From a virus, in the IMG/VR virus record IMGVR_UViG_3300007735_000553, positions 1-26,584 of that record: DNA of 26,584 nucleotides; one strand, 5' to 3'. Positions 2,618 to 25,622 of this stretch are shown here, in pieces; position 1 is the first letter of the stretch, and every line of letters starts with the position of its first letter. A program made the translations under genes and the position numbers. Under the pieces are notes generated by a model. That model saw only the letters and a list, made by a program, of their open reading frames with translations. It was not told where the DNA came from and ran no database searches.

Positions 2618-2625
2618 CAAATATA
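2618..2625 (-). promoter_or_regulatory. -7 promoter box TATATTTG
   Basis: The minus strand reads TGTATATTTG, a perfect match to the Bacteroidota -7 consensus TAnnTTTG. No good TTG is seen 18-21 bases upstream. It lies 5 bases past the stop of the last early gene and would drive the small RNA candidate or the region upstream of the primase-helicase. Confidence 0.45.
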
Positions 2626-4032: not shown

Positions 4033-4232
4033 AGGTTGGTTTGGTTTAGTTTGGACATCATTGCGACGCACTTGGTACGCTCTTCGGTCACGCCGAGGTT
4101 GTACGCGTTCTGCATGTCTTGCAGTGCGCTCCGGTACGCCTCCGCCCAGACCGGGTAGAGGCGCGCCGAAACTTCAGGCGATACGTTCTGGAATAGCTGG
4201 CCAACGAGCGTCACGACCTTGCCCAGCTGCAT
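4029..4232 (-). CDS. Small hypothetical early protein (67 aa)
   Basis: The start at 4232 (MQLGKVVTLVGQLF) is preceded by CACCACAAC. The predicted protein is mostly helical (VSPEVSARLYPVWAEAYRSALQDMQNAYNLG), with no signal or membrane segment. Its C-terminus KLNQTNL is read from the AACCAAACCAACC leader of the next gene, and the stop overlaps the next start as ATGA. No family is recognised. A 23-codon frame (4211-4282) lies just upstream and may affect its translation. Confidence 0.6.
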   Translation of the reverse strand: MQLGKVVTLVGQLFQNVSPEVSARLYPVWAEAYRSALQDMQNAYNLGVTEERTKCVAMMSKLNQTNL

Positions 4233-6313: not shown

Positions 6314-6496
6314 TTAGAAAGTGTAGGTGTCATCTTCTTTGTTGAGTTCATTGGTTTTTTTTAGGTATGCAAATATACATAAATAAATAATAGGCAGTGC
6401 GCAGAATGATATGTACCACCACCAGCGGTCGTGGAAGTCTGCCATCATGTAGACCATGGATAGCAGGAAGGGAATGATCAGGAGTAGGTTGGTCAT
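6314..6496 (-). CDS. Small membrane protein (60 aa), two transmembrane helices
   Basis: Residues 3-18 (NLLLIIPFLLSMVYMM) and 27-45 (WYISFCALPIIYLCIFAYL) are strongly hydrophobic and separated by a short loop with charged and Trp residues (DFHDRWW). This is a helical hairpin that would sit in the inner membrane. The tail is polar (KKTNELNKEDDTYTF). Small two-helix proteins in early phage operons often act in superinfection exclusion or host membrane modification, but nothing here is specific. The start overlaps the upstream stop as TAATG. A promoter-like box lies inside its 3' half. Confidence 0.65.
   Translation of the reverse strand: MTNLLLIIPFLLSMVYMMADFHDRWWWYISFCALPIIYLCIFAYLKKTNELNKEDDTYTF
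6370..6377 (-). promoter_or_regulatory. Early-class -7 box TATATTTG inside a gene
   Basis: The plus strand TATGCAAATATACAT at 6367-6381 is identical over 15 bases to the early promoter near 7550. It would direct transcription leftwards into the small ORF at 6303 and the annealing-protein gene. No TTG -33 element is seen at 18 bases. The flanking AT-rich sequence (AAATAAATAATAG) is unlike the coding DNA around it. Confidence 0.45.
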
Positions 6497-7194: not shown

Positions 7195-7500
7195 TTAGAG
7201 GCTGGTTCGCAGGCCAGTTGCTTGAGTAAATACGCTTTGCAGTTGTTCAGCGTAAACATTACAATATATTACGACTTCCGTGAATTTGTACCCTACTGAT
7301 TTTGCAATTCTTACAGTGTAAGTATCTGAACCATTGAGTTCAATATACATGATGTTAGCTTTTGAGCTGCCTTTGAATTTTACGCATACTGTCTGGCTAT
7401 AGTAGCCGATTGTTGCGCCAGTCATTGCTAAAAATTTGTTACCGCCTAATTGGTTGATAACTTGGTTTACAATCTCTTGGCTTTTTACTGAATTTGTCAT
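7195..7500 (-). CDS. Hypothetical protein (101 aa), widespread small phage family
   Basis: This is the first gene behind the early promoter. The sequence has the look of a small family seen in many phages and mobile elements: N-Q-L-G-G-x-K-F-x-A-M-T-G-A near residue 18-28, a middle stretch ANIMYIELNGSDTYTVRIAK, and an end with AEQLQSVFTQATGL. No biochemical function is known to me for it. The predicted fold is alpha-beta without membrane or signal segments. The start MTNSVKSQEI follows AACCAACCA. As the first early gene it should be strongly expressed soon after infection. Confidence 0.75.
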   Translation of the reverse strand: MTNSVKSQEIVNQVINQLGGNKFLAMTGATIGYYSQTVCVKFKGSSKANIMYIELNGSDTYTVRIAKSVGYKFTEVVIYCNVYAEQLQSVFTQATGLRTSL

Positions 7501-7546: not shown

Positions 7547-7598
7547 CAAATATACATACATATATATATACGATGCAAACTTTTTTTTTTTTTTTTTT
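7547..7598 (-). promoter_or_regulatory. Early operon promoter with A-tract
   Basis: The minus strand has a -7 box TATATTTG (7547-7554), a TTTG (7576-7579) 21 bases upstream, and directly before it a run of 18 As (7581-7598) that could act as an UP element. It lies 47 bases ahead of the first early gene. The gap 7501-7677 holds nothing else recognised. Confidence 0.7.
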
Positions 7599-11574: not shown

Positions 11575-11874
11575 TTAGTCAGTATATGCAACAGCAGTAC
11601 CAGCGGCAATGGTGACCGCCTTAATCGTCAATCCCTGAGGCGCACGCACAATCATGCCGGTCTGCCATTGGAATGAAGAGCTGAAGCCAAGAACTGTCAG
11701 CAAGTTGCGGTCAAGCTGATCCGTTAGCGTGCTGATGGTCGTGTTTGGCGTGTTGATGACCATGAACTTTATGCGCTGATTTGTCAGCGCAGCAGCGGTG
11801 GCGCCTGATCCACTCACACCCACAACTTGGATGTTCAGGCCATCAGCCATCATGTCTTGGTTTACTGTACTCAT
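11575..11874 (-). CDS. Small putative virion protein (99 aa)
   Basis: This Ala/Thr-rich protein is beta-like throughout (LNIQVVGVSGSGAT, IKFMVINTPNTTI, LTIKAVTIAAGTAVAYTD) and has no charged clusters or membrane segment, which suits a structural or decoration protein. It has its own promoter (TTTG-N18-TATATTTA) about 17 bases upstream, within the preceding gene's 3' end, so it and the receptor-binding gene form a separately driven unit. The family is not recognised. Confidence 0.65.
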   Translation of the reverse strand: MSTVNQDMMADGLNIQVVGVSGSGATAAALTNQRIKFMVINTPNTTISTLTDQLDRNLLTVLGFSSSFQWQTGMIVRAPQGLTIKAVTIAAGTAVAYTD

Positions 11875-11891: not shown

Positions 11892-11921
11892 TAAATATAC
11901 CTTAGGTCGGAATTTCACAAA
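11892..11921 (-). promoter_or_regulatory. Structural-class promoter, TTTG-N18-TATATTTA
   Basis: TTTG at 11918-11921 and TATATTTA at 11892-11899 (minus strand) are separated by exactly 18 bases, with the class-typical AAGG just before the -7 box. It precedes the gene starting at 11874 by 17 bases and overlaps the 3' end of the gene ending at 11902. Confidence 0.75.
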
Positions 11922-12405
11922 CTGAGTGTCCCCAGGGGATGTCAAAACTTAGGGAAGCTGTCCACCCGGCTACCTTGTCATCCCTGGCCTCCACAAACCT
12001 GGTCAGCGCCACGCTCTCCTGCAGCGTCCATATCTCATCGGGATCATCCGTCAAGGATGCTATGAAGTCCTGAGCTGTGCGCAGTTGATCACTGAGCACC
12101 TCGTCTTCATTGTCAGTCCACCGGTAGACAACACTGCCGCTGATCGTCGCATCGAGGCCACGCAAGTCCTCAACGCGGTCCATCCAATAGCACTGCACAC
12201 TGAGCGTCAGCACTCCCCTCCCCGCTTGTGCAGAGATAACGTCAGCGAAGACCAAGGGATAGGCGATCCTATCGCGGTCGCTGGTTCGTAGATTGATTAC
12301 ATTGTCCGTCCCGATTGCCAGCGGATCCCCTGTCCCGAAGCTGTTCACCTGGGGATGGTTTACCGCTCGCGTCATCAGGGCGTTTTTGATCTTTACCCAA
12401 GACAT
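11902..12405 (-). CDS. Putative tail terminator / completion protein (167 aa)
   Basis: The protein has an alpha-beta layout: N-terminal helix (VKIKNALMTRAVNHP), a middle with YPLVFADVISAQ and VLTLSVQCYWMDRV, and a C-terminal helix and strand. Many Asp residues follow hydrophobic strands. Pattern and place resemble the small head-tail completion or tail terminator proteins that follow connector genes in siphoviruses. There is no signature motif, so the assignment rests mainly on position. It is spaced 39 bases after the connector gene. Confidence 0.5.
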   Translation of the reverse strand: MSWVKIKNALMTRAVNHPQVNSFGTGDPLAIGTDNVINLRTSDRDRIAYPLVFADVISAQAGRGVLTLSVQCYWMDRVEDLRGLDATISGSVVYRWTDNEDEVLSDQLRTAQDFIASLTDDPDEIWTLQESVALTRFVEARDDKVAGWTASLSFDIPWGHSVCEIPT

Positions 12406-12444
12406 AGCGTGCCAGTTTTAATACGTTGTTTTTATGCGCTCCCA

Positions 12445-13035
12445 TTAGCAGTTATCACATCCATACCAGCCTTCGTCGTTGATGCCATACGGCCTATCCA
12501 GGCCGACACCACGCATCCGGTAACCACGATCGAGGACCATGCCGACGCGGTAGTTTGTTGCATTCGGGTAGATAGTGTCAATGGCTACCGTTGGGCTGTT
12601 AAAGAGCGGGTAGTCGTTGCGGTTCTCCACGAGGTAGCGCGTCACCCTCTCGCTGTACCACTCCGCATCGCTTTTCGTGCGATCCATCAGCCTGGTGATC
12701 TCATCGACATTCATTGCAGTGCTTTCCGTGCTCGTGCGTCGATCCATCCCTTTATTCATGTACTTGAACGCGAGGACCATCGGCAGCTCAAATTGCAGCC
12801 ACTGGACGAGTGCCGGCTGGATGTAATCTTCAAGCAGCGTGGTGTTCAACGCACTGACACTCTGAGCGATGATCTGCGCCTTGATCTGGTTATACAGCGG
12901 CGATCCGATGATCGGCTGTATGCGCATCTCCTGCACTTTGATCAGCGTCGGGCGGATCTGCGTGTAACTGACGTTCTCATTGATGATGCTGTTCTCGAGC
13001 AGCGTCTGCTCGCTGATGAATAGTGCCTTGCTCAT
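12445..13035 (-). CDS. Head-tail connector-like protein (DUF6712-like, 196 aa)
   Basis: The start at 13035 (MSKALFISEQTLLENSIINE) is chosen because it overlaps the portal stop as ATGA; the longer frame reads portal DNA out of frame. The helical N-terminal part (VSYTQIRPTLIKVQEMRIQP, then GSPLYNQIKAQI) and the later TRLMDRTKSDAEWYSERV match a family seen next to portal genes in Bacteroidota phages (DUF6712). It probably forms a ring below the portal. The C-terminal part is rich in Tyr, Gly and Asp with two close Cys at the end. Confidence 0.7.
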   Translation of the reverse strand: MSKALFISEQTLLENSIINENVSYTQIRPTLIKVQEMRIQPIIGSPLYNQIKAQIIAQSVSALNTTLLEDYIQPALVQWLQFELPMVLAFKYMNKGMDRRTSTESTAMNVDEITRLMDRTKSDAEWYSERVTRYLVENRNDYPLFNSPTVAIDTIYPNATNYRVGMVLDRGYRMRGVGLDRPYGINDEGWYGCDNC

Positions 13036-15161
13036 GGTGCTTCTGTTATTCTGTTGCCTCTGCGAATTACTGTTACCTGCTCCCAGATATGGCGGCATTG
13101 CGGCGTGCGTATGTCTGCCGGTCCTGGTCTGCGATACCACCCACCCCTACGCGCCCACACGCTGTATCCCATGATCTGGGATATTTGGTTGATCTCCTCC
13201 CTGGTGTAGACCTTTCCGCTTTGAGCCATCTGCAGCATGATAGTGCAGAACTCCCTGCTGGTTTTGACGTCCTTGTTGCTGAATCCGGGTGCCCAAGCGT
13301 AGCGGTAGCGCATCTCAAGAGTTGGCACCTCCGTTGGCGCTGTCTCCTTCTGAATCGTGTCAATCACGCGGCGGATGGGATAGCGGTTTTTCTGCATCAG
13401 ATAGGCCACACGCTTGCGTATGCGCTCACGGCTGACACCGAACTCTCGCGCCATCTCTTCAACGGTAGCATCTAAATTCCTGCGCCTGTACTTGATGATC
13501 TTATCATCCAGCTCTTTTTCCTCTTCATCCAATGCCGCAAACGCCTGCCTGGTGGCGTTGCTTATATCCTCTTCCAGCTTCCCGGTGAAGTGCAGCGGCT
13601 GGCTGTGCAGGATGACGTAGTCGCTCTCCTGGCTGCCAAATGTCGATGCCACACGGTGCAGGATTTCGTACTCTTCATTGCCCCAGTCGCATGTCGCATC
13701 ATCGTAATCTTCAGCGCTGAACTCCTGCTCATTAACCCCCAAGAATGCGTCAACCTGTTCAGCACTCAGCCCGAAGCCAGCCCCCAACATCGTCCTCGCC
13801 TGCTCCAAGTTAATCTTGCCCTGGCCGTAGTGCCTGACGATGCGCATTAGGTTTTGATACTGCCGCCCCGAGAGGGTGCGTATTGCTTCGTTTATGGGCT
13901 CTGCGGCGGCCTCTATGGCAAGATCTCCTTGGCCTGGCTCTATCACTTCGCCCGCTGTTTTCAGTGGCTCTAATCCCGCTTTTTCACGCAGCTCATCCGG
14001 TGTCATAATTGTCATCAGCGCCTGCTCCGAAAGCTGCTCAGTGATCGGCTCGACAGGGATCAACGTCAAGCCTTCAACGCCGTTGAATGACGCCAGGTAG
14101 TTGATGGTTCGCTCGATTCTCTTGATGCGGTCTTGGACGTAGGTGTTGCGGAATAATTCAAAGGCCTCCACCAATTCCTTGCGGCCTCCAAGCTGCCCTT
14201 CAACACGAACACCGAACAGCTGAGGGTTGGTGACGCGGTGGCTGATAAAGATCTCCTGCTGCACCGTTTTATTGAGCACCTCAAACTGCTTGTCCATGTC
14301 GCTCGGGGTGAGTGGCAACATCGTTGGCGCTTTCGTGGCATCATCATTGAAGGTGACGACAAAGCGACCTGCATTGTCCGTGCCGCTGAACTTGCGCTTG
14401 ATCTGCCGCTCAATGTCTACCTGTTCCTCAGGTGTGGGGATGCCGTTGTTGAAGTTGATAAGATAGCCACCCCAAAAATTGTTTCTCAGATTATTATTGT
14501 GGAAGTTGGCGATCTCCACGTCAGCTTCAATCCACGCCAAGCCGCCAAGATATTCGGGCAGAGGGTAGTACTTGACGCCCGCTGAATAGCAGCGGTAGTA
14601 GAAGAGTTGCTTGCCGATGCGGTTCTCTGGATCAAAGGCAGGGATGCGCTCAATGTCCTCAACCTTGGGGAACTGGCGGATCATCTCTTCATTGTACCAA
14701 TTTGCAATTTGGAACATCTTCTCCTTCTTATCCACGCGCACACGCTCAAAGGCTACATGCTCCATCCTGGCGATTTGCCCGGATCGTGACCAAGTCACAG
14801 CAATGGCCATGCCGTTGAATAGCTCAAAGTCCAAGCACAGCTTCTGCGTAAGGTCGTTCAAATCGTCAACCTCGTTGGCGTCGCTGATGAATTTCTCTTG
14901 CTTCGCCCTGGTCTCAAGTGTGCCTTGCTCATCTCCCTGCCATCCACCTCCGATGATGTAGCCAACTTTGCCATTGACAATGGCGTTGTGCTTTGAACTC
15001 CGCCGGTACATGTTTAGCAGGTAGTATGGGTACTCATTCTCAACGCCATATCCGATGTAATCCAGTCCTGGCTGCTCGACCATGATTGGCACTTTGTGTG
15101 CAAATCCGGGCCAGGCGAAGAAGCGGTGAGGCTGGCTTTTTTTAGTTGTTGTAGACGGCAT
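13032..15161 (-). CDS. Portal protein with long C-terminal extension
   Basis: The start at 15161 (MPSTTTKKSQPHRFFAWPGF) gives 709 residues; the longer frame lacks a leader. The first ~430 residues look like a phage portal: GVENEYPYYLLNMYRRSSKHN near the N-terminus, LINFNNGIPTPEEQVDIE, and SHRVTNPQLFGV near 310. The portal forms the dodecameric DNA gateway of the capsid. Beyond it lie a helical linker, an HTH-like stretch (about 562-589: TVEEMAREFGVSRERIRKR) and an end resembling MuF-type minor head proteins (ARRGGWYRR about 671-679, CRHIW at 689-693). It overlaps the upstream gene by 20 bases and couples to the connector gene. Confidence 0.85.
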   Translation of the reverse strand: MPSTTTKKSQPHRFFAWPGFAHKVPIMVEQPGLDYIGYGVENEYPYYLLNMYRRSSKHNAIVNGKVGYIIGGGWQGDEQGTLETRAKQEKFISDANEVDDLNDLTQKLCLDFELFNGMAIAVTWSRSGQIARMEHVAFERVRVDKKEKMFQIANWYNEEMIRQFPKVEDIERIPAFDPENRIGKQLFYYRCYSAGVKYYPLPEYLGGLAWIEADVEIANFHNNNLRNNFWGGYLINFNNGIPTPEEQVDIERQIKRKFSGTDNAGRFVVTFNDDATKAPTMLPLTPSDMDKQFEVLNKTVQQEIFISHRVTNPQLFGVRVEGQLGGRKELVEAFELFRNTYVQDRIKRIERTINYLASFNGVEGLTLIPVEPITEQLSEQALMTIMTPDELREKAGLEPLKTAGEVIEPGQGDLAIEAAAEPINEAIRTLSGRQYQNLMRIVRHYGQGKINLEQARTMLGAGFGLSAEQVDAFLGVNEQEFSAEDYDDATCDWGNEEYEILHRVASTFGSQESDYVILHSQPLHFTGKLEEDISNATRQAFAALDEEEKELDDKIIKYRRRNLDATVEEMAREFGVSRERIRKRVAYLMQKNRYPIRRVIDTIQKETAPTEVPTLEMRYRYAWAPGFSNKDVKTSREFCTIMLQMAQSGKVYTREEINQISQIMGYSVWARRGGWYRRPGPADIRTPQCRHIWEQVTVIRRGNRITEAP

Positions 15162-15960
15162 AGTCAATCGTGTTATTTTGTTTAAGGTATGTCTCCGTGC
15201 CAAGCTCAACAAAGGCGAGGCCTGTTTCAAGGACACGCGGGTTCGTGGTTGGTAGCAGGAAGCGACGCATAGCACGCGTGTAGCGGTTGGAGGTGTTGCC
15301 CTTGCTGTGCGTGCCTTGGTTGCCGTTGTTCATGTCCACCGTGAACGCCTGCGTCGCTGATGCCTGTGTCGAAGACCAGTAGATGTGGTTTGCGAAGCCG
15401 CCAAGTCCATCGCTGGCTAACTCCGTCCACATCATCCCTAACTCCTCCAGCGACGGCAAAAACCAGTCGCTAAAGTTGTTCAGCACTAAGTCATTGGCGA
15501 GCCTTGCTGCGATGCCCGCGGTGGCGCAACCAGCGACAATAGACGCCGTGTTGATGACACCTTGGCCAATCGCTTCGGGTGTCGCCCCTTCAGCTATCAG
15601 CGTCCCTTGGCAACCCCACGGCGCGCTGGTCGACTGATCCGTTGCGGCGGTGATATACGCATAGCCGCTATCGGTGAATGTGTATAGTCCGCCTTGTACG
15701 AAGTCGCCAGCGGTGTAGGTTGCTGGGTTCTCCGTCACCTCATAACGATACTGCCCTTTCTCCAATGCGCCCAAGGTGAATGCGAATTTGTCGTAACGGC
15801 TTTCGTACGACGACAGGTTGTCAATCGCGTTCAGGTAGATATCAGTGGCTTCCAGCGTCGCCAAGTTGGTCAGCCGCAAGCGGTAGACCGTTGCGCTGTT
15901 CGCACGCTCGGTCCAGGTGACTGTGATCGTGTTGCTTTGACTGGCCTTTAAGTATAGCAT
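15142..15960 (-). CDS. Virion display protein with DUF1566/Lcl-type C-terminal domain
   Basis: The start at 15960 (MLYLKASQSNTITVTWTER) lies 15 bases after a class-typical promoter; the longer frame overlaps the glycosyltransferase gene. Residues 1-90 form a beta-rich domain that may anchor to the virion. The C-terminal domain (about 98-235) has the DUF1566/Lcl pattern: DWFLPSLEELGMMW at 165-178, GGFANHIYWSSTQ at 187-199, then an Asn/Gly-rich loop region and RAMRRF at 229-234. This is the C-type lectin-like fold also used by variable phage tropism proteins. A host-binding or glycan-binding display role is inferred. No template repeat or reverse transcriptase is visible. Confidence 0.7.
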   Translation of the reverse strand: MLYLKASQSNTITVTWTERANSATVYRLRLTNLATLEATDIYLNAIDNLSSYESRYDKFAFTLGALEKGQYRYEVTENPATYTAGDFVQGGLYTFTDSGYAYITAATDQSTSAPWGCQGTLIAEGATPEAIGQGVINTASIVAGCATAGIAARLANDLVLNNFSDWFLPSLEELGMMWTELASDGLGGFANHIYWSSTQASATQAFTVDMNNGNQGTHSKGNTSNRYTRAMRRFLLPTTNPRVLETGLAFVELGTETYLKQNNTIDYAVYNN

Positions 15961-15975
15961 CAGTTGGCTTTCTTG

Positions 15976-15983
15976 TAAATATA
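15976..15983 (-). promoter_or_regulatory. Structural-class -7 box AGGTATATTTA
   Basis: The minus strand carries the conserved AGGTATATTT 15 bases before the start at 15960. The position where TTTG would be expected (18 bases upstream, 16002-16005) reads AATG, a weaker -33. Confidence 0.55.
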
Positions 15984-15997
15984 CCTCAAAGCCCGAT

Positions 15998-17083
15998 TTA
16001 ACATTTTTTGCGGCCAAGTGCCCGGTATAGCTCCACCCGCCTCTGTGTCGTCGCATCCAAGTCAAAGCGTTCTTTGACATCTTTCTGCAGCTGCGCCGCC
16101 AACGCCATCCGCGTCTCTGGCTCATTCGTCAGCATCTTAATAGCCTTGTACCACCCGGTGTCGTTCTTCCTGTATGGCACAACGTAGGCATTCTCCATAT
16201 GTCGCACAATATCGGTGTAAGGCTCTTTCTCAGAGCATATCAACGCCTTGCCCATCCATCCTGCCTCCACAACTTTTAACTCGCTCTTGAGGCCATTAAA
16301 CAGCGTATTCCGAAGTGGTGCCAGCGTGACATTGACAAAGTTGTAACCGCCAACATAGGAGTAGATGTCGGCTGCCCTTATTCTTCCGTAGTTGCGCGTA
16401 TTTTTCCCATTGTAGCTGAAAATGCGCTCATAACCAGAATAGACGTGATTACCATCATTCCACCCACCCAGGTAGATCCGGTACTTGCCATCAAGTGAAT
16501 GATCGCCCTCAAGCTTGCCCATTGAATTGTACAGCATCTCAATATCCTCGCCATGCTGAGCGCCACCAAACCACCCGAATTTGACAACATCAGGATCGGG
16601 TTCCATCTCCGGGACAGGGATGAACTGCTGGTATTTATCGTAGGGGATGTTGGGTAAGATTGTGATGTTTGGATTCAGCTTCTTGACGTACTCGGCCAGG
16701 TGCGTAGTCGTGCAGGTGACGTGATCGGCAAGGCGCACAGTCTCTGCGATCATCTCGCTCATCTTGTGGTCCTGGTACTGCTTATACATGATATGCCCGG
16801 TGCCCAGATACCAATAGTCATCCATGTCCAAGATAACCTTTGCGCCGGCACTTGTGAGCGCCTTGTAGACGTTCCTCACCTGGTCAATAGTGCCCTGCAC
16901 CCACGTCCGGTTGAACAGAAACAAGTCCACGGATTCCAGTGCTTCATCGGTGATGGTGGCGATGTTCTCGACACAGACAAAGTCAAACTCTGGGTAGTTG
17001 TCGCTGACCACGGCGTTGGGCATCTCGAGGCGGTAGTAGCTGCAGCCTGTTGGATGCGCGTTGTAGACGATGCATATCTTCAT
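15998..17083 (-). CDS. GT-B type glycosyltransferase (GT4-like)
   Basis: The 361-residue protein has an N-terminal Rossmann-like start (MKICIVYNAHPTGCSYYRLEMP), a LDMDDYWYL segment at 85-93, and the GT4-type donor-binding region KSELKVVEAGWMGKALICSE at 266-285, where Glu268 and Glu273 are the likely acidic residues. Such enzymes transfer a sugar from a nucleotide donor. It lies inside the virion gene block between the tail tube candidate and the display protein, directly after a strong terminator and with its own -7 box, so its level may differ from that of the capsid genes. Possible acceptors are virion proteins or host surface glycans. Confidence 0.8.
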   Translation of the reverse strand: MKICIVYNAHPTGCSYYRLEMPNAVVSDNYPEFDFVCVENIATITDEALESVDLFLFNRTWVQGTIDQVRNVYKALTSAGAKVILDMDDYWYLGTGHIMYKQYQDHKMSEMIAETVRLADHVTCTTTHLAEYVKKLNPNITILPNIPYDKYQQFIPVPEMEPDPDVVKFGWFGGAQHGEDIEMLYNSMGKLEGDHSLDGKYRIYLGGWNDGNHVYSGYERIFSYNGKNTRNYGRIRAADIYSYVGGYNFVNVTLAPLRNTLFNGLKSELKVVEAGWMGKALICSEKEPYTDIVRHMENAYVVPYRKNDTGWYKAIKMLTNEPETRMALAAQLQKDVKERFDLDATTQRRVELYRALGRKKC

Positions 17084-17087
17084 TTTG

Positions 17088-17095
17088 CAAAGTTA
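17088..17095 (-). promoter_or_regulatory. -7 box TAACTTTG before the glycosyltransferase gene
   Basis: TAACTTTG matches TAnnTTTG and lies only 4 bases before the ATG at 17083, immediately after the terminator at 17100-17130. No TTG -33 is evident because the T-run occupies the spacer. Transcripts would be nearly leaderless. Confidence 0.45.
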
Positions 17096-17099
17096 ACCC

Positions 17100-17130
17100 A
17101 AAAAAAAAGCCCCGCGATCTCTCGCAGGGC
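17100..17130 (-). terminator. Rho-independent terminator of the capsid unit
   Basis: The minus strand forms a 9-bp stem (arms 17122-17130 and 17109-17117) with a 4-base loop and is followed by nine Ts (17100-17108). One pair is G-U in the minus-strand RNA but a mismatch in the plus-strand RNA, which confirms the orientation. It closes the unit scaffold-capsid-tail tube. Confidence 0.9.
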
Positions 17131-17176
17131 CTTCAACCAACCAATACAACTACGCTGCAATATACGATTTCATGCG

Positions 17177-17710
17177 TTATGATCCGCTAATCTGCGTCGC
17201 ACTTGTTATGCCCGAAAGCAAGGTTCCGCTGACCAAAAACATCGGCTCAGTCTCCATGCCTGTCAGCGTAATGTCGTAGCCGCTTCTGTCACCAAAGGCA
17301 GTGCCGGTCTGAGCCGTGCCCGCTGACATATCGCAGCCATTCGACGCTCCCAAAAGCCAGTAGCGGTCGTTCTGATCTCTTACGATTGCCAGCACTCGGT
17401 TACGAGCGAGCAAACGTAGTTCATTGCGCACAGCAACCTGCAGCTTGTTGATGATGAACTGCACGTCTTGCTGGTAGAATACAGTGCCATTCTCTAAGGA
17501 GACATTGACTGTCTCCGTCATCTGCGAGGTGGCCTTCGTTAAGTCATATTCATAGAACGCGGAAGAGTAACCGGTGAATCCGGTTACTGTCCCACTTCCG
17601 TTAGTGCCAACACTTCCTGTTGCGTTGAGGACCGCTATGCGGACCTCTTTAATGCCACCCGCGCTGTCACGACAGCCGAGTGCATATCCGGTGGTTAGTC
17701 CGCAACTCAT
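17177..17710 (-). CDS. Probable major tail tube protein (177 aa)
   Basis: The protein is beta-rich with long strand-like segments (GYSSAFYEYDL, QMTETVNVSLENGTVFYQQDV), a helix (IINKLQVAVRNELRLLARN), and a GYDITLTGMETEPMFLVSG segment near the end. The N-terminus MSCGLTTGYALGCRDSAGGI is typical of a Bacteroidota phage structural family. It lies 2 bases after the capsid gene and right before a strong terminator, so it should be made in amounts like the capsid protein. A tail tube subunit would need that. A capsid-associated protein is the alternative. Confidence 0.6.
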   Translation of the reverse strand: MSCGLTTGYALGCRDSAGGIKEVRIAVLNATGSVGTNGSGTVTGFTGYSSAFYEYDLTKATSQMTETVNVSLENGTVFYQQDVQFIINKLQVAVRNELRLLARNRVLAIVRDQNDRYWLLGASNGCDMSAGTAQTGTAFGDRSGYDITLTGMETEPMFLVSGTLLSGITSATQISGS

Positions 17711-17712
17711 GG

Positions 17713-18660
17713 TTAGGCCAATTTCCAGTCAACAACAAACTCAGGGTAGGCGATTTGCACGCCGGCTTTCATAGCAGCCTGGAAACGAATTTCATCGTTG
17801 TCGCGAGAATGCCAGATGCTGAACTGCTCCTCATCGCTGAGCAAATCCGTTCCGTAGAACATATTGCCAAGGTATGAAGTGACGATTCTGCTGGTGCTGT
17901 TCAAGCCGTTAACCGCAACAACTTTGAGGTTTGTGCCTGGGAAGACCTGCTCGCCAGTCTGCATGCCCTCAGCCGTGTAGTGGAAGTTACCGGTGCCCGA
18001 TCCTACGTTGATGAATGCGTTCATCATCAAGCGGAAAGTGTCCCAACCACAGAAGGCAACTAAGTCCTCGCGGTTCAAGATCTCAACTGGTATCCGAGTG
18101 TAGATTTGTTGGAAGATACCGATCACATTCGATGCTGTGATCGCTCCTGAAACAGCGGCAACGTTACCCGACACAACAGTGCCTGATGCCTGGTCAAGTA
18201 AGCGGTTGAAGCCGTCAAACTTGTTGGTTTGGATGTTGGTGTTCGACGTCGCTGTCGATCCCTGCCAGATTGCAGTCTCCAAAGCAGCGGCGATCTTGGC
18301 AGCCTTCTGCTCAGCAAAGGCCTGCTCAAAGGGAACGCCAGTGTAGTTGCTGCCTTGCGTCAGCTGCGTCTGCATCCAGTACTGCTCAAGCGAGCGAGGG
18401 CATAGCGCCTCTTGTACTTTGATAGCACCAACTGTCAACGTGCGAGCGCTGAACGTCGTCGTTCCTGATGCATTCCATCCGCATGACGTTCCAGCTTGGA
18501 ACGGCGCATCGGTGTCCATCAAGTTAAGGGTTGCAGCCGACTTGATGCCGACTTGCTTTGACAGCAGGCTGGCAGTCTTCGCTCCGAAGACGGCCTTGGT
18601 GATCAACGGCAGTCGCTGCTGGTCGACATACGTTGATAAGTTTCCAAAGGTGTAACTCAT
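17713..18660 (-). CDS. Major capsid protein (HK97-type fold)
   Basis: The 315-residue protein has the length and pattern of HK97-fold capsid proteins. It has a helical N-terminal arm (STYVDQQRLPLITKAVFGAK), Thr/Ser-rich strands, a long spine-like helix (EQAFAEQKAAKIAAALETAI at about 113-132), an A-domain-like region (VEILNREDLVAFCGWDTFRL) and a strand-rich end (AYPEFVVDWKLA). It is preceded by a scaffold gene and a protease gene, the usual head-assembly group. No -7 box lies directly in front, so it is cotranscribed with the scaffold gene. Confidence 0.88.
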   Translation of the reverse strand: MSYTFGNLSTYVDQQRLPLITKAVFGAKTASLLSKQVGIKSAATLNLMDTDAPFQAGTSCGWNASGTTTFSARTLTVGAIKVQEALCPRSLEQYWMQTQLTQGSNYTGVPFEQAFAEQKAAKIAAALETAIWQGSTATSNTNIQTNKFDGFNRLLDQASGTVVSGNVAAVSGAITASNVIGIFQQIYTRIPVEILNREDLVAFCGWDTFRLMMNAFINVGSGTGNFHYTAEGMQTGEQVFPGTNLKVVAVNGLNSTSRIVTSYLGNMFYGTDLLSDEEQFSIWHSRDNDEIRFQAAMKAGVQIAYPEFVVDWKLA

Positions 18661-18683
18661 TTTTTTGTTGGGGGTTTATAGGG

Positions 18684-19319
18684 TTAAAGTGTTCTTTTCA
18701 TGTTCTGAATGGTCGCAGCCAAGGCGCTGAAGTTCTCTTCCTTCCTGCGCTTGTTGTTTTCAACAATGCCAGGGATGCTTGGAGCAGCTGGTGCTGTTGG
18801 CAGGTCGCTGACCTTCTCAACGATGTCTGCCATGGTAGTCATGTGCGAGGCCATAGCCTCCATCTTCTTGCGCTGCGCTCCCAGCTCCGTCATCGCGGCC
18901 TTTAGCTCATCCATAATCGCCTGCAGGTGCTTGGCGACAATCTCAGTGACGACTTCCGGTGTCATCGTGGGATAGGCATCAGCGATCTCCTCAACGACTT
19001 CGGTGGCTACTTCCGGGGTGATCTCAGCTTCTACCTCAACTTCCGCCACTGGCTCTGCAGCTGGTGTCGCCTGTACCTCAGTGATCTTGCCGCCAACGGT
19101 CACGATTGTGCCCACGTCAGGGATTGTGTGCGTTCCATCGGGTGCTGGTATTACCGTCTCATCAGCGATGACGTAGACTTCAGTGCCTTCTACAAGCTCG
19201 CCGTCAACGCGCACAACAGTGCCGTCTTCAAGTGTGTAGTCAGCGAAAGATTGCGGTGCCTGGACGCTGAACTTCCTCAGCTCACCACGCAACAAGTCGA
19301 TTGCATTTTTTAGATTCAT
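18684..19319 (-). CDS. Capsid scaffold protein
   Basis: The 211-residue acidic protein has a short N-terminal helix, a small beta section (YTLEDGTVVRVDGELVEGTEVYV and HTIPDVGTIVTVGGKITEV), an Ala/Glu/Val-rich linker, and a coiled-coil helix (about 135-170, AIMDELKAAMTELGAQRKKMEA). The basic C-terminal end (ENNKRRKEENFSALAATI) is a likely capsid-binding segment. This low-complexity, helical design between a protease and the capsid gene is that of a scaffold, which templates prohead assembly and is then removed by the protease. It has its own class-typical promoter 18 bases upstream. Confidence 0.85.
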   Translation of the reverse strand: MNLKNAIDLLRGELRKFSVQAPQSFADYTLEDGTVVRVDGELVEGTEVYVIADETVIPAPDGTHTIPDVGTIVTVGGKITEVQATPAAEPVAEVEVEAEITPEVATEVVEEIADAYPTMTPEVVTEIVAKHLQAIMDELKAAMTELGAQRKKMEAMASHMTTMADIVEKVSDLPTAPAAPSIPGIVENNKRRKEENFSALAATIQNMKRTL

Positions 19320-19329
19320 GGGTGTTGAT

Positions 19330-19920
19330 TTATTGGGAAATATACCTTGAGGGCAAATGTTGCAAAAAAGCCGCCAAATCTTGTGCCAATCCTGCCAGGG
19401 CCATCTCCAAGGCGCTGTCTGTGGGCTTCATGCCGAACAAGCCCTCAACGCTGAATCCTGTGAACTGGTCGCGATTCTCCCAAACTTTGTCGTTGTCGAC
19501 TTTGAAAGACCCAAACCAACTGCCATTCTTCGCATCCTCGTAGCCCTTGGGTGGGTTGATGCCGCGATCCCTGTCTATCAGGTAGCTCTCAAACATATAC
19601 ACGCCGTCAAGCTCGGTGCTATGTTCAGCGTTGACGTTATGTTGGTTCCCCTGCTTGAAGTACTTCTGGACAATCTTGCGGATGGTGTCAGCATCAAAGA
19701 CGACGTAGTACTCGCCGTATGTGTCATCGTTGCGGTATATCGGCGTATCGGCCAACATCAACGGCCCTGTCAGCACCCGCTTCTCTCCGGTCTCACTGAA
19801 TCGCTGTTTTTTGGCGAAAGCTTGAAATGGCCGCTCGATAGCAGGGTGTTCAACAAGCGCCACGAAGCTCACTCCCTCATCGACCTCGTCGATGGTCATC
19901 TTGTAGACTGGTATCTCCAT
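19330..19920 (-). CDS. Prohead protease, XkdF-like
   Basis: The 196-residue protein matches the XkdF-like serine protease family. It has VLTGPLMLADTPIYRND at 49-65, EYYVVF at 70-75, NVNAEH with candidate catalytic His100, an ES pair at 111-112, GSWFGSFKV at 133-141, and GFSVEG with candidate Ser157. It would cleave scaffold and capsid N-termini during head maturation. The ATG lies only 5 bases downstream of the -7 box, so the transcript is nearly leaderless. The gene ends 11 bases before the scaffold start. Confidence 0.85.
   Translation of the reverse strand: MEIPVYKMTIDEVDEGVSFVALVEHPAIERPFQAFAKKQRFSETGEKRVLTGPLMLADTPIYRNDDTYGEYYVVFDADTIRKIVQKYFKQGNQHNVNAEHSTELDGVYMFESYLIDRDRGINPPKGYEDAKNGSWFGSFKVDNDKVWENRDQFTGFSVEGLFGMKPTDSALEMALAGLAQDLAAFLQHLPSRYISQ
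19337..19366 (-). promoter_or_regulatory. Structural-class promoter, TTTG-N18-TATATTTC
   Basis: TTTG at 19363-19366 and the -7 box at 19337-19344 (minus strand) are 18 bases apart. The upstream part TTTGCAACATT is shared with the promoter at 19926-19955. It lies inside the 3' end of the protease gene and drives the scaffold gene. Confidence 0.75.
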
Positions 19921-19925
19921 GTCCG

Positions 19926-19955
19926 TAAATATACCTATGCCCCCAATGTTGCAAA
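19926..19955 (-). promoter_or_regulatory. Structural-class promoter, TTTG-N18-TATATTTA
   Basis: TTTG at 19952-19955 and TATATTTA at 19926-19933 (minus strand) are 18 bases apart. The -33 region overlaps the last codons of the tape measure gene and the -7 box follows its stop. Only 5 bases separate the box from the protease ATG. Confidence 0.75.
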
Positions 19956-21575
19956 TTCAGACATCCGGCGCAAACGACTTGAGGTGTCGCTGATGTCACG
20001 CTCGACGACGTAAGCCCTCAAACCTGTCTGCCCTTGACCTTGGTTGTTGGCGAGGTTGCCCAGGTCCGTACTTTGCGGTGTGCCAAAGATTGGCGGTGGT
20101 GCTGCCTCGCCTCCTGCTGCCGACGATCCTGTTGATGGTGCCGCCCCACCTCCGCCACCTGCCTCCGATCCACCTTGGAACTGCTGCTGACTTATAGCCT
20201 TGACGCGTGCTAATGCTGCTGCCGCCGCTGCCGCTGCTAAGACAAAGTTGAGCGGTGCAGGTGCTGACTTAAACGCCTTCTGTGTTGCGACAATACCGTC
20301 AATGATTGCCGTAGCCATTGACGCCTTCTTGTTAATATCAAAGGCTCTGCGCTGCGCTTTTTCGCTCTTGCCGGCAAACAGCGTCGCCAAGTCCGCAATC
20401 CCCTGGAGTGTCTGCTTCGCCCGGTCCACTCTGCGTTGCTCGCGCATATTCTCAAGATCTTCCTCCGCCTTCTTTTCCGCCATCAGCTCCTTGACGCCTT
20501 TACGCCTTTCGCCGCGGATCTGCATTTCACCAAGGGTGTTGCTCTTGTTTAGCTCATCCCAGTACTTCTGGAAGCCGTCTATCAGCTGCATGTAACCTAC
20601 CTCATGGTCTTTTTTCTGCTGCTCAAACTCACGCCTGCGTTCCTCCAGTCTCCTGGCCCTTGCCGCTGCCTCGGCTGCCTCACGATCAGCAATGCCCTTG
20701 TCGATGATGTTCTGCTCTTCCCTGATCTTAACATTTAGCACTTCAATCTCTTGGCGTGCTGCGTTTTGGTATGTATTCTGCCTCACGCCTTCCGCCTTAA
20801 TAGCATCGTCAAGGTTCTTTTGGATGCTTGCACGCTCCTGCTCATATCTCTTGATCCGGATTGCCGCCAGTTGCTCATCAGTTGTACCGAAAGCTTTCAG
20901 CTTGCGCTCATAGAACTCCAAAGTGCCAACGGTCTCATTGAGCGCCCGCTTAATGTCCTTTTGATTTTCGACTTCATCTTCGGTCTTGCTGCTGAAGAGC
21001 CCCATCGCCTCTGCTGCCAATCCTAATGCTACGACAAAGGCACCGATGCCGGTGGAGACCATTGCAATCCTGAACGCCTTGAGCGCCCCTGTGCTGGTGC
21101 CGACTGCTGCAGTGTATAAGCTTTGCGCCAACGTCATCGCCTTGGTAGTGATGACGCTGTTGCGGTTCAGCAGCTCAGCAACTTGCTGAACACCGGTGAC
21201 CAAAGCGATAGATGCCTGCACCTTCATCATGGTCTTCTGAAGGTCTTCATTCTCATCACCAAACAACGCTGCTGCTCCCTGAGCAATAGCGAAGCCGCCA
21301 GCCATCAGCTGTGCCGCCTGGCCGACAGCAGCAAGCCCCGCTGATCCCGCTTTGCTGTACCTGTCAATGGCCTGCTCGACGCCCTCAATGTCACGCTTCA
21401 GCGATCCCGCTTTGGCGCTCAAATCTTGGAACTCCTTCGTGTTCTGTTTGCCAGCGGCGGCAAGATCCAGGAGCTCCTTCTTCGTCTCGTTGAGTTGCTC
21501 TTCAAGGCTTTTGAACGCAGGCGCAGTGTCGTCCTGCGCGCTGACTTTGATAATTATGTCTTTTTCCGTGCTCAT
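19935..21575 (-). CDS. Tape measure protein
   Basis: The 546-residue protein begins with STEKDIIIKVSAQDDTAPAF and a coiled-coil (22-75), followed by hydrophobic stretches (about 79-105 and 171-194). Then comes a long charged helical region (about 240-400, with many Arg/Glu), a second hydrophobic Ala run near 440-460, a Gly/Ser/Ala/Pro-rich linker and a short conserved end (RAYVVERDISDTSSRLRRM). This is the tape measure design; it sets tail length and is threaded through the tail tube. Using about 0.15 nm per residue, a tail near 80 nm is expected. Confidence 0.88.
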   Translation of the reverse strand: MSTEKDIIIKVSAQDDTAPAFKSLEEQLNETKKELLDLAAAGKQNTKEFQDLSAKAGSLKRDIEGVEQAIDRYSKAGSAGLAAVGQAAQLMAGGFAIAQGAAALFGDENEDLQKTMMKVQASIALVTGVQQVAELLNRNSVITTKAMTLAQSLYTAAVGTSTGALKAFRIAMVSTGIGAFVVALGLAAEAMGLFSSKTEDEVENQKDIKRALNETVGTLEFYERKLKAFGTTDEQLAAIRIKRYEQERASIQKNLDDAIKAEGVRQNTYQNAARQEIEVLNVKIREEQNIIDKGIADREAAEAAARARRLEERRREFEQQKKDHEVGYMQLIDGFQKYWDELNKSNTLGEMQIRGERRKGVKELMAEKKAEEDLENMREQRRVDRAKQTLQGIADLATLFAGKSEKAQRRAFDINKKASMATAIIDGIVATQKAFKSAPAPLNFVLAAAAAAAALARVKAISQQQFQGGSEAGGGGGAAPSTGSSAAGGEAAPPPIFGTPQSTDLGNLANNQGQGQTGLRAYVVERDISDTSSRLRRMSEFATLGA

Positions 21576-23797
21576 GATTCAGGGTTGTCAGGTTCAGTGC
21601 CAGGTTCGTTGGGGTAGTTGCTGTTGGGATCATAGGGCGGCTCCGGTCCATTGTACGGCGCAGATGTCACGCTGCGCGGCACAAATTCCGTGAGGTTGAG
21701 GATCCTGCGAAGCGTCACCCGGCATGGTTTCTTCTGCCCAACAAGGTAGTCGCGGATTTCCAGCAATCGCCAAAGCACGCCTCCGTAGAATATAGGCTTG
21801 CGGAAGTCAAGGGTTGCGATGTCCGTGGTGGTCAACATCATGCTCTGCTCCAGCTGCAACGCCTCCTTGCTCGTGGTCTCCAATATGAAGTTCCACCAGA
21901 ATTGATTGTAGAGGTTGTTGTTCGTGTATGAAATAGTCGATCCCGATGCGTTGCGTGCATTATAGTAGACTTGCCGAGGAATACCAAACGCCAGGTCATT
22001 GGTAGGGTTGTATGGGTTGTTGATGTGGCCAATGTAGGGCAGCGAGCTGACAACCATCGACGATGCCGCCGCCGTGATAAAGTTCCACGGATATGGCGCA
22101 ACCGTTGTGCTCCCGGTGATGTTGGTGAACTGAGCAATGCGGTAGTTGTTTTGCAGCGCCTTAATTGTCCCGCTCGATGGTGAGCCGTCAATCTCAAAGG
22201 TTCGCCCGATTACCTTCTCGCTCGTGAACGCGCCAGGGATGACAGTGGCAGCCTTAAGCTCAATGACATTGTCACCACGGCCGTAGTAGTTGTTGGTGTC
22301 GAAGATGCGCCCGCCGTAGCCTTCAATGGCCAAGGGATAGCTCGCCTTGTATAGGCGGCTGAGGTAGTCGCCTGCATCTTTGTACTTCATGATGATGCGC
22401 CGGTAGGCGTTGGGATCTCCGTTGGTGATTTTCTTCTCGGCGTTTTCGTCAGCCTTCATCGACCAATCCACCGATCCGCTGGAGTAGAAGGTAGTCCACG
22501 GCTCAATGTATATCAGCTTGGGATCATCGGGATCCGGCATGAAGTGTAAGTTGAACATCTTCTGCAGGTCAACGAGCAGGTCGCTCTGCCTGATGTCGCC
22601 AGGTAGCGCCGTGTTCATGTTGATATTCCCCACCGATGCCGGGTTTTCAAGCGCCACCCACGTTATGGTGCTACCAGATGCGATTTGCACGAATGGCGAT
22701 CCTACCTGTTCGTCATAGCGCAGGATCAGGTTGGTGTTGCCGCTGACTGTGATGTTTTCAAATTGTAGACCAACGGTAATCGGGTACGTGCTACTGGTCA
22801 GCTCTGCAAATTGAGAGGCAACGACACTGCTGGCGATGGTGTCATAGATTTGGAAGTCACCACCTGCTGTCCCCTCAACGCTGAGGGTTGCCGTGCTGAT
22901 GCGGATCTGAGCAAAGCAGTTCCACCTGGTGCGAATAGTAGGCGGCACCAACGTGCTTGCCGATGCGACCCAATAGCCGCCGTTGTCAAAGAATGGCGAG
23001 ACGTTGTCGTTGCTGAAATTGACCTTGACGGTTACGGTCTGCGATCCTGTCACGCTGCCGGTAGCCTGAGCATAGACAGTGCTCCCGCTGAGGTTGACAG
23101 CCAAAGTCCCCGCGGCGTATGGCATAACGAGGCGCTTGAAGGCGTCGGAGTTGAAGAACGTCGACTGGTATCGATAACCTGCCTGCGTAAAGATCAAATC
23201 AATCATCTGCTTGATGTAGATGCTTGGCGACAACTCGTAGTATCCCAACGTCAACCGGGCGCTGCTTCGCACGTCAGAATAGCCGGCACTGTCAACCATG
23301 CCATAGACGTAACCACTGCCCAATGCCGCGCCCCAGGTGCTGCTCACCAATGCCGCCGTTGGAGTGTGGTTCATGCCACTCACCCCTGCCGTCTGCGCGA
23401 GCAGGATAGCCTCCGTAGCCTGGAAGAGCGAGACATCCTCGCCAAACAAACCGATTTCATAGGTGACCTCACCGCGTGTCTTGCTCATGGACATCAGCTG
23501 AAGGACGCCGCTGAAGATCTGCACGCCGTCATCCCACAATGCCGCCCGGATCTTCTTATTCGGGGTGAAGCCACCAACAAAAGACTGGATGTTGTAGGCA
23601 AATCCAAAGCATTGGTCATTGGTTGCCGTCGATGGCAGCACAACAGTCTTGCTGAAGGATCCCCTGCGCTTGGTGATGTCCTGGATGTCCGTGATCGTGT
23701 ACGTCATGGCCACGTCAATCTCGCCCATGGTGTCCAACATATAGGGCACTTCGACGTCGCTGTCATTCAGCGGGTATGCAATTAACGTGACGCTCAT
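21572..23797 (-). CDS. Tail tip / baseplate hub protein (741 aa)
   Basis: This large beta-rich protein begins MSVTLIAYPLNDSDVEVPYM and includes TYTITDIQDITKRRGSFSKT (about 33-52), an N-terminal pattern typical of tail-tip proteins in Bacteroidota phages. Later come a carbohydrate-binding-like beta region (260-370, ending near LILRYDEQVGSPFV) and a C-terminal Pro/Asn-rich tail. It lies between the distal tail protein candidate and the tape measure and overlaps both by 4 bases. It would form the hub through which DNA passes or contact the host surface. No lytic motif was seen. Confidence 0.75.
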   Translation of the reverse strand: MSVTLIAYPLNDSDVEVPYMLDTMGEIDVAMTYTITDIQDITKRRGSFSKTVVLPSTATNDQCFGFAYNIQSFVGGFTPNKKIRAALWDDGVQIFSGVLQLMSMSKTRGEVTYEIGLFGEDVSLFQATEAILLAQTAGVSGMNHTPTAALVSSTWGAALGSGYVYGMVDSAGYSDVRSSARLTLGYYELSPSIYIKQMIDLIFTQAGYRYQSTFFNSDAFKRLVMPYAAGTLAVNLSGSTVYAQATGSVTGSQTVTVKVNFSNDNVSPFFDNGGYWVASASTLVPPTIRTRWNCFAQIRISTATLSVEGTAGGDFQIYDTIASSVVASQFAELTSSTYPITVGLQFENITVSGNTNLILRYDEQVGSPFVQIASGSTITWVALENPASVGNINMNTALPGDIRQSDLLVDLQKMFNLHFMPDPDDPKLIYIEPWTTFYSSGSVDWSMKADENAEKKITNGDPNAYRRIIMKYKDAGDYLSRLYKASYPLAIEGYGGRIFDTNNYYGRGDNVIELKAATVIPGAFTSEKVIGRTFEIDGSPSSGTIKALQNNYRIAQFTNITGSTTVAPYPWNFITAAASSMVVSSLPYIGHINNPYNPTNDLAFGIPRQVYYNARNASGSTISYTNNNLYNQFWWNFILETTSKEALQLEQSMMLTTTDIATLDFRKPIFYGGVLWRLLEIRDYLVGQKKPCRVTLRRILNLTEFVPRSVTSAPYNGPEPPYDPNSNYPNEPGTEPDNPES

Positions 23798-24975
23798 AGG
23801 ATGCTATTGCGATAGGCTACCGATATTTCCACCTGAAGCTGCTGCAGCCTGTCGTTGCGCCTGGTGTAGAATTGATAGCTGTTGGTGTTGACGATGCCTT
23901 CGACCAATGCGCCGTCAATCTGCAGCCACACCTGAGCAGAGCGGATCATCTCCATAAGCAGCTCACTCTCCAGGTCCGTCAGCCAGTCGCTGTTTAGGTT
24001 GTAGGTGTAGGTGAACTCCCCTGCCCACTGCTTATCGTAGGTCAGCGTGCCGTAGACATCGGAGTTGGCGCCGTAGATCTGCCTGCTAACCGATGCCTTG
24101 CGCCTGTTCTTCATCGTGAAGAGGTAGGTGTCAATACCTCCATATTGGTTGATGTAATGCACAGGAATCGTGTTGAACTGTGCGCACTCAGCTATGTTGT
24201 ACTGAAACGCAAATCCATAGTCACCAAGCGCAAAGTTATAGCTGAGGATAGAGACACTGCCACCTGACCCTGGGAAGTCCGTCGATCCTGGTAGGCCGTC
24301 ACTTGTCTGCCCCGATGTCAGCGCCTTGAGCTGTGCTGGACCACTGGCAACACGGATGGCATTTGTGCTGCCCGATGGCACCGCAAGCAGGAATGTGCGC
24401 CCGGTAGAATAACGCACTTCAATATTGTCAATGATGGTGTTGCCGCTGACACCCTGGCCGAAGCAACTCCACCCATAGCTATCACTCAACGCCGTGCTGG
24501 GCGATGCACTTATGCGACTTGTTAATCCGTGGTTATCAATCTGCAAAATATTTGTCGGCGGAAAGTATGTGTCGCTATCATAGCCTGCCAAATCAAGCTG
24601 CTCAAGGTTGCCTGCAAAGGTACCTACCCCTGATACCACGGTTGGCGATCCAGTAATGACAACAGGTGTCGTGCCGTACTCCTCGTAGAACTGCAGCCTG
24701 TATCCGCTTGTGAAGCCGTCGTGGTTGACAATACCAGTCTCGCTGAGTGATGGCGCCTGCGGTGCAATAAGCGTCTCCACCACCTTGCTGACATCAAAGA
24801 ATCCGAATTGTGTGTCGGGCAGCTTGTCGCTCTTAAGTCGTGCCAATCGTGTGCCCGCCGTTGTCTCCACATCGCAGACATAGCGGTAGTTGGGTTGATT
24901 CTGATTCGTGCCGTCCACAACATAGAGCATCTTGTTGTATGCCGGCGTCCATCCTGTGTTGCCTGTTACGTTCAT
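23794..24975 (-). CDS. Distal tail structural protein (393 aa)
   Basis: The protein starts MNVTGNTGWTPAYNKMLYVV and reads YRYVCDVETTAGTRLARLKS and FGFFDVSKVVETLI in the first 75 residues, a pattern of Bacteroidota tail proteins upstream of the tail hub. The middle is a Ser/Gly-rich beta region, and the end (FTYTYNLNSDWLTDLESELL, then QLQVEISVAYRNSIL) is alpha-beta. A distal tail or tail-tip role fits both location and pattern. Start and stop overlap the neighbours by 4 bases, so the block is translated as a unit. Confidence 0.7.
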   Translation of the reverse strand: MNVTGNTGWTPAYNKMLYVVDGTNQNQPNYRYVCDVETTAGTRLARLKSDKLPDTQFGFFDVSKVVETLIAPQAPSLSETGIVNHDGFTSGYRLQFYEEYGTTPVVITGSPTVVSGVGTFAGNLEQLDLAGYDSDTYFPPTNILQIDNHGLTSRISASPSTALSDSYGWSCFGQGVSGNTIIDNIEVRYSTGRTFLLAVPSGSTNAIRVASGPAQLKALTSGQTSDGLPGSTDFPGSGGSVSILSYNFALGDYGFAFQYNIAECAQFNTIPVHYINQYGGIDTYLFTMKNRRKASVSRQIYGANSDVYGTLTYDKQWAGEFTYTYNLNSDWLTDLESELLMEMIRSAQVWLQIDGALVEGIVNTNSYQFYTRRNDRLQQLQVEISVAYRNSIL

Positions 24976-25586
24976 ACTGGTTTTTGTAGGCTTATTTGCT
25001 TGTCTATTAGTCCGCTGATCTCAGTGATCAAAGTGTTGACCGCTGGCTCCGTCAATGTGTCCGACATGAAGCGCGTCGCTCTTAACCCCCGGCTGTGTAT
25101 CGCCCTGGAAATCAGAAAGGATAGCGTGCGATTGTTGGCAGCCCTCTCCCTTCCTGGCGCTCCCGCCATCTTAATCCCCTTGAATGCAATCCACTCCTGC
25201 AGTGGCCTCATCGGTGGCCTCTTCCCGCCTTTCTTGTAGCTATATGGCGAATTGGGCGCACGCAATGCACTATCCGCCCCTTTCACCCCTAAGTCTACGA
25301 ACTTCCAGTAACCATCCGCCTCCAAGACAACGGTGAACGCATTATCCGTCAACTCCAACGGCCTGACGTTGATACTTGATGCCAGTTGATTGCTGGCAAT
25401 CGCTTTGGCTTGCCTTAACCGCTGAATTGCTTCGTCTTTGACGTTTTCGAGCCACTCCTTGACCATTTCATAGCCTGGAGGTAAAACACCCTCAGGCGGC
25501 AATAGCGTTGCTCCTATGGCTTCTATTTGCGCCTGCTGGATTGGCTTCATCTTGCCGGGTGTTCCGGCGAAAACATCAAACTGCAT
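24972..25586 (-). CDS. Tail completion-like protein (HK97 gp10-type, 204 aa)
   Basis: The N-terminal half is helical with a MVKEWLENVKDEAIQRLRQ segment. The middle has VVLEADGYWKFVDLGVKGAD followed by SPYSYKKGGKRPPMRPLQEW, similar to gp10-type neck or tail completion proteins, in which a DGYWKF-like strand precedes a basic loop. The end is helical and Leu/Ile-rich. Its start lies 5 bases after a -7 box, so this unit is separate from the chaperone gene upstream. Confidence 0.6.
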   Translation of the reverse strand: MQFDVFAGTPGKMKPIQQAQIEAIGATLLPPEGVLPPGYEMVKEWLENVKDEAIQRLRQAKAIASNQLASSINVRPLELTDNAFTVVLEADGYWKFVDLGVKGADSALRAPNSPYSYKKGGKRPPMRPLQEWIAFKGIKMAGAPGRERAANNRTLSFLISRAIHSRGLRATRFMSDTLTEPAVNTLITEISGLIDKQISLQKPV

Positions 25587-25591
25587 ATGCT

Positions 25592-25599
25592 AAAATATA
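25592..25599 (-). promoter_or_regulatory. Structural-class -7 box AAGGTATATTTT
   Basis: This is the conserved AGGTATATTT, 5 bases before the ATG at 25586. The position of the expected TTTG (25618-25621) reads AAAT, so this is a weaker or activator-dependent site. Confidence 0.55.
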
Positions 25600-25622
25600 C
25601 CTTGCCCGCAAAAGTGTATTTT

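Follow-up and report, generated by a model that had tools for sequence, protein, structure and literature searches.

The stretch of DNA analysed here, called the window in the following, comprises 26,584 bases and is the whole IMG/VR virus record IMGVR_UViG_3300007735_000553, which is probably a fragment. The minus strand is the coding strand for nearly all of its genes. Structural genes lie at high coordinates and encode a portal protein, an XkdF-type protease, a tape-measure-like protein and a probable capsid protein; the lysis and early genes are situated at lower coordinates, with a VapE-type primase at 298-2499. A protein encoded at 3499-4071 has a long Ala/Tyr-rich low-complexity tail (AAYAAAYAAA...), the length of which varies among relatives. 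The host of the phage is probably a Bacteroidota bacterium, a phylum suggested by the promoter type, the BT4734-like domain of the primase and the phage P12024S. Searches of bacterial genomes with the portal protein and the sigma-like protein described below found neither integrated relatives nor a host. The features needed for the following discussion are listed here, with the candidate late-promoter boxes (late boxes) numbered J1 to J5.

25593..25602, minus strand: late box J1, AGGTATATTT(T), 6 nt before ATG 25586; no TTTG-N18; kept in relatives
24972..25586, minus strand: first gene after J1, 204 aa, phrog_29822
19952..19955, minus strand: TTTG of the J2 upstream element (TTTGCAACATT), 18 nt before the box; family profile
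19927..19936, minus strand: late box J2, AGGTATATTT(A), 6 nt before ATG 19920 of the XkdF-type protease gene; kept in relatives
19330..19920, minus strand: XkdF-type protease gene after J2, PF14550
19363..19366, minus strand: TTTG of the J3 upstream element (TTTGCAACATT), 18 nt before the box; family profile
19338..19347, minus strand: late box J3, AGGTATATTT(C), 18 nt before ATG 19319, inside the 3' end of the protease gene
18684..19319, minus strand: gene after J3, 211 aa; the probable capsid gene 17713-18660 comes next
15977..15986, minus strand: late box J4, AGGTATATTT(A), 16 nt before ATG 15960; no TTTG at -33
15142..15960, minus strand: gene after J4, MLYLKASQSN..., start at 15960
11918..11921, minus strand: TTTG of the J5 upstream element (TTTGTGAAATTC), 18 nt before the box; family profile
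11893..11902, minus strand: late box J5, AGGTATATTT(A), 18 nt before ATG 11874
11575..11874, minus strand: gene after J5, 99 aa, MSTVNQDMM...
7547..7554, minus strand: early-type box TATATTTG, TTTG 21 nt upstream, precedes gene 7195-7500; kept in relatives
6370..6377, minus strand: early-type box TATATTTG, inside the 3' part of the small ORF 6314-6496; kept in relatives
2618..2625, minus strand: early-type box TATATTTG, precedes the primase gene, whose start is at 2499; kept in relatives

The original prediction held that five gaps between structural genes share one sequence on the minus strand. Exactly five copies of AGGTATATTT exist in the window, all of them on the minus (coding) strand and none on the plus strand, each one base higher than first proposed. 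Simulations with Markov models of order 2 and 3 gave 0.007-0.02 expected copies on that strand, and the search for the motif elsewhere in the window, which had been suggested as a check, returned only these five structural-region sites. When one mismatch was allowed, 7 copies were seen compared to 0.87 expected, a number that was reached in 0 of 100 shuffles. Downstream of all five boxes, an ATG of the structural-gene region follows after 6-18 nt, with the ATG at 15960 taken as start codon for the box at 15977. The TTTG exactly 18 bases upstream was claimed for three sites and is present there at precisely the coordinates proposed; it is missing at 15977 and 25593. Furthermore, the additional sequence said to be common to two sites is TTTGCAACATT at 19338 and 19927, where it codes for FATL in one protein and, in another frame, for LQHL in a second. 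An extra TATATTTA was noticed inside a gene at 10729-10736, without the G before TATATTT and without a start codon nearby.

Bacteroidota promoters provide the frame of reference for these boxes. In Flavobacterium johnsoniae the -7 element reads TAHHTTTG, in which T-12, A-11, T-8, T-7, T-6 and G-5 are nearly invariant, and transcription starts 4-5 nt beyond the element (PMC6847099); F. johnsoniae itself has little -33 motif (PMC6847099), while Bacteroides shows TTTG near -33 in addition (PMC7366714). The early-type boxes of the window satisfy this host element including G-5, which is present in all three of them. Their sequence TATATTTG was seen three times, at 2618, 6370 and 7547, compared to 0.45 copies expected in the window. 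As had been pointed out before, AGG is missing at these boxes; TG (TTG or ATG) stands just before each of them instead. In the five late boxes, the position of the host G is occupied by A (three times), C and T, and in no case by G.

Searches with the probable capsid and portal proteins resulted in about 150 loci of relatives. The nearest clade has kept AGGTATATTT at all five junctions. In the 86-89% clade, GTATATTT is found at five of five junctions and is preceded by AGG at three, the remaining two being TTGGTATATTT and AAAGTATATTT. The 61-66% clade shows TACATTTA or similar at the same junctions, located 18 bases after TTTG wherever TTTG exists, and in more distant relatives AGG is absent and the box itself differs. 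The putative promoter positions are conserved, AGG is lineage-specific and the box changes with the lineage. Hence, the proposal of a distinct promoter class before structural genes, apart from the early-type boxes, gained support from the boxes at the same junctions of relatives, but the "conserved AGG" that was thought to define it did not, since its occurrence at all five window sites is not repeated outside the nearest relatives; the relatives rule out AGG as a class hallmark. AGG as a remnant of a Shine-Dalgarno sequence was ruled out as well, because of the variable distance from box to ATG at the window sites. In 16 distant records GGGTATATTTTAG was regarded as a further candidate, but it looks like coding sequence and not like a promoter, and related records have TACTTTT there. 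A collection-wide search with the pattern AAGGTATATTTA...ATGAG was too loose to be informative. It must also be mentioned that the window primase (298-2499) is 99% identical to the primase of G032 (L390, L391), a genome with another type of structural genes and late boxes; relatives appear to have exchanged their early and late blocks.

To describe the late sites of the family, a profile was built from 54 non-identical sites. It contains an upstream TTTG-led element at about -34 to -24 and TTT at -8 to -6. Common to the family is this element, separated by a constant distance from a box whose letters depend on the type and which ends in ATTT[A/C]. The TTTG occurs at exactly N18 in 29 of these 54 sites. 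Throughout the family, the candidate late promoters are distinguished from the early ones by the letter after TTT, mostly A or C versus the host G, and by type-specific preceding letters. An A is found at the inferred +1 in 50/54 sites. In 26 of them it coincides with the A of the start codon, which follows by construction of the 6-nt class; among the sites with longer leaders, +1 is A in 20 of 23, compared to 52% A across those leaders. The location of the boxes just before start codons would also be expected if the motif acted in the mRNA as a translation-start signal and not as a promoter. However, the distance to the ATG falls into two groups (6-8 or 14-24 nt) while the distance from TTTG to box is fixed in a promoter-like manner, the box is present at only some late genes, and Bacteroidota mRNAs have no Shine-Dalgarno signals (PMC6847099), which makes a signal in the mRNA hardly credible.

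If the boxes are late promoters, the question arises which factor reads them. In longer relatives, the reading of ORFs disclosed a protein of 174-193 aa encoded between the replication genes and the terminase; the window record is cut before this region. Among relatives with a window-type late block, the protein is found in L470 and also in L473, the latter being assigned by neighbouring genes. Sequence profiles were weak for this protein (best phrog_1740 with E 0.003), Pfam gave no hit, and searches of PDB sequences with its profile gave chance-level hits only. When 32 records were searched with the Pfam families of sigma region 2 and region 4_2, P12024S was the only one in which a stand-alone sigma gene was detected. 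An AlphaFold model built from an alignment of 19 diverse members reached a mean pLDDT of 82 and a pTM of 0.48. The structure matches listed were sigma-factor chains, the best among them sigmaE with Z 8.9. The second half of the model could be superposed on region 4 of sigmaE bound to -35 DNA (rmsd 2.8 A, 69 residues); the match of the first half was region 2 of an ECF sigma factor (3.2 A, 78 residues). The whole-chain rmsd is high, as the two halves are placed differently, and the structural match rests on the separate halves; Foldseek against the PDB gave E-values no better than 0.035. Among viral models, some of the matching phage proteins carry the name of a sigma-70 or RpoE homologue. Judged from this model, the small protein looks like an ECF-type sigma factor in which both region 2 and region 4 are represented.

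The start region of most of these sigma genes in types A, B and D, as defined below, consists of TATATTTG, 8 nt and GTG; a few have TATCTTTG instead, and type C has the weaker ATCTTTG. The putative promoter of the sigma gene in types A, B and D is of the host type, and its TATATTTG fits a cascade from host sigma to phage sigma. Several additional observations were made on sigma-like sequences. A fifth and more distant type, about 36% identical, is encoded at L215:8756-9331 and L212:6954-7547, in records that contain little of the late block. In G002, a small protein with a DnaA DNA-binding domain (PF08299) is encoded at 16756-17055 (L161:1757-2056), directly before the type C sigma-like gene. 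Moreover, residues 581-629 of the portal-like protein of the window (13032-15275) resemble a sigma-70 region 4 helix-turn-helix (PF04545, 22.8 bits, just under the cutoff), and sub-threshold region 4 hits also exist in large portal-like frames of eight relatives. The portal hit was considered as the source of the switch and set aside once the stand-alone sigma-like gene had been found.

The sigma-like proteins fall into four types, which are 38-57% identical to each other and are accompanied by different late boxes.

Sigma type D (window type): late box GTATATTT
Sigma type A: late box GATATTT
Sigma type B: late box GGTATTT
Sigma type C: late box ACATTT

Sigma type and J1 box type agree in all 58 of the 58 loci having both. 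In 13 genomes, a table of sigma type against the boxes near starts had a single off-diagonal entry, GTATATTT in G040, which is probably a host-type box before the sigma gene. The two counts are not independent, as sigma and late genes adjoin and many loci are near-copies, and the co-variation is confounded by common descent. A ranking of k-mers near starts without knowledge of the boxes placed the box of the respective type first in 7 of 9 genomes; it was third in the type B genome and absent in G001. For type D, very few records have both sigma and late boxes, and the pairing of the window with this type is an analogy to near relatives because its own sigma gene is not in the record. Two observations go beyond ancestry. 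Within a single genome, several promoters have changed in concert and the early boxes of the host type have stayed the same; moreover, four loci of type C have a type C box although their J1 protein is closest to the D kind. This match between the type of ECF-sigma-like protein and the type of late box in relatives, as far as fold prediction and sequence comparison allow, speaks in favour of the phage-guided RNA polymerase that the original prediction had envisaged.

Nevertheless, other readers of the boxes have to be considered. The late boxes could be variants of ordinary Bacteroidota -33/-7 promoters that are used by the unmodified host polymerase, with the missing G as tolerated drift; the -33 TTTG and the TAnnTTT of the window boxes would fit a host promoter. 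Yet the nearly invariant G-5 is found in 2 of the 54 late sites of the family, i.e. it is missing in 52, and is present in the early-type boxes of the same genomes. Furthermore, types A and B break T-12 (GATATTT, GGTATTT), and B also A-11, consistently at several junctions per genome. We therefore regard ordinary host-sigma promoters as unlikely, although the boxes of type D have kept T-12 and A-11, so the host sigma could read them weakly. Another possibility is a phage activator that binds the TTTGCAACATT-like upstream element at about -34 to -24 and helps a host sigma that tolerates a poor box; the sigma-like protein itself might be this activator. The upstream element is indeed conserved at a fixed distance to the box, and the region-4-like half of the protein could bind it. 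However, it is mainly the box that varies with the protein type, whereas the upstream element is alike in all types. If an activator were at work, variation with the protein type should appear in the upstream element, hence its appearance in the box counts against this reading, and the protein has a region-2-like half in addition. An activator acting with the host sigma appears quite improbable to us.

We consider it likely that the five sites are late promoters and that a phage sigma factor, itself expressed from an early host-type promoter, redirects the host RNA polymerase to them, in some cases to give leaderless transcripts. This idea of an early-to-late switch is largely supported, apart from AGG as its hallmark. 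Soon after entry, the host RNA polymerase with the main host sigma would read the early-type TATATTTG promoters, which match the Bacteroidota consensus TAnnTTTG and one of which stands, in the sequences of relatives, directly before the small ECF-sigma-like gene. In the second step, suggested by the fold and the co-variation, the phage sigma would join the host core polymerase and direct it to the late promoters, in which the TTTG-led element (about -34 to -24) is followed at constant spacing by the box, (A)GGTATATTT[A/C/T] in the window lineage, without the host G. The transcript would then begin with an A, seven bases beyond the last T of the box. For J1 and J2, the predicted start coincides with the A of the start codon, so the mRNAs would be leaderless; the leaders at J3-J5 would comprise about 10-12 nt. 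The late promoters would feed the head and tail gene blocks. Beyond the window, we see about an even chance that at least four distinct sigma/late-box pairs exist in one phage group and are exchanged together with the late block, while the early promoters read by the host remain unchanged. If this is true, late genes would be tied to the sigma of their own type, and relatives would be less able to recombine or to make use of late genes from one another.

Such a scenario, if right, would describe an early/late switch at the sequence level for a large, uncultured and probably Bacteroidota-infecting phage group. Some annotated start codons, such as that of the type A protease gene, would have to be revised in line with the predicted leaderless starts. 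With four related sigma-like proteins and four boxes, recognition of the -7 region becomes directly testable, and orthogonal promoters for Bacteroidota are a possible outcome. An incomplete search of the literature yielded neither an account of late transcription in this phage group nor a report of a comparable set of matched sigma/box pairs.

Systems of this kind are already known from phages phiEco32 and 7-11 and, more loosely, from T4. Compared to the Bacteroidota housekeeping (sigma-ABfr) promoter (PMC6847099, PMC7366714), the window late boxes share TAnnTTT and a similar inferred distance to the start, and three of the five have TTTG near -33, but they lack G-5, and other types also alter T-12 and A-11. 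Cultured Nonlabens phage P12024S (JQ823122, L167) has a portal protein 28% identical and a similar gene order, and its Sigma70_r2 protein (P12024S_33) is encoded between replication genes and terminase like the sigma-like gene of the relatives. Its repeated motif just before structural genes, read by eye as roughly AAACAAA...CGTTAATA, is unlike the ATTTA boxes; it occurs a few bases before the starts of the genes at 179, 3031, 5412, 21280, 23961, 25201 and 26802. T4 late transcription (gp55, gp33 and the gp45 clamp; PMC2988020) likewise depends on a phage sigma-like protein that redirects the host core polymerase to a short late box. However, the T4 late promoter is a single 8-bp box that is read without an equivalent of region 4 (PMC2988020). 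The present group is set apart from the T4 type by conserved sequence upstream of the box, at about -34 to -24, and by a protein of which one half resembles region 4. The closer parallel is found in 7-11 and phiEco32, for which the portions of PMC4331800 considered here describe a phage-encoded sigma with its own middle and late promoters and an anti-sigma factor. Host-type early promoters, a phage sigma and a separate repeated motif before structural genes, predicted from genome sequences, are common to that system and ours. According to the same portions of the source, its hosts are enterobacteria with a sigma-70 consensus and its motif core is TGATGT, unlike in this phage group, and they describe no set of matched sigma and box types such as the one proposed here.
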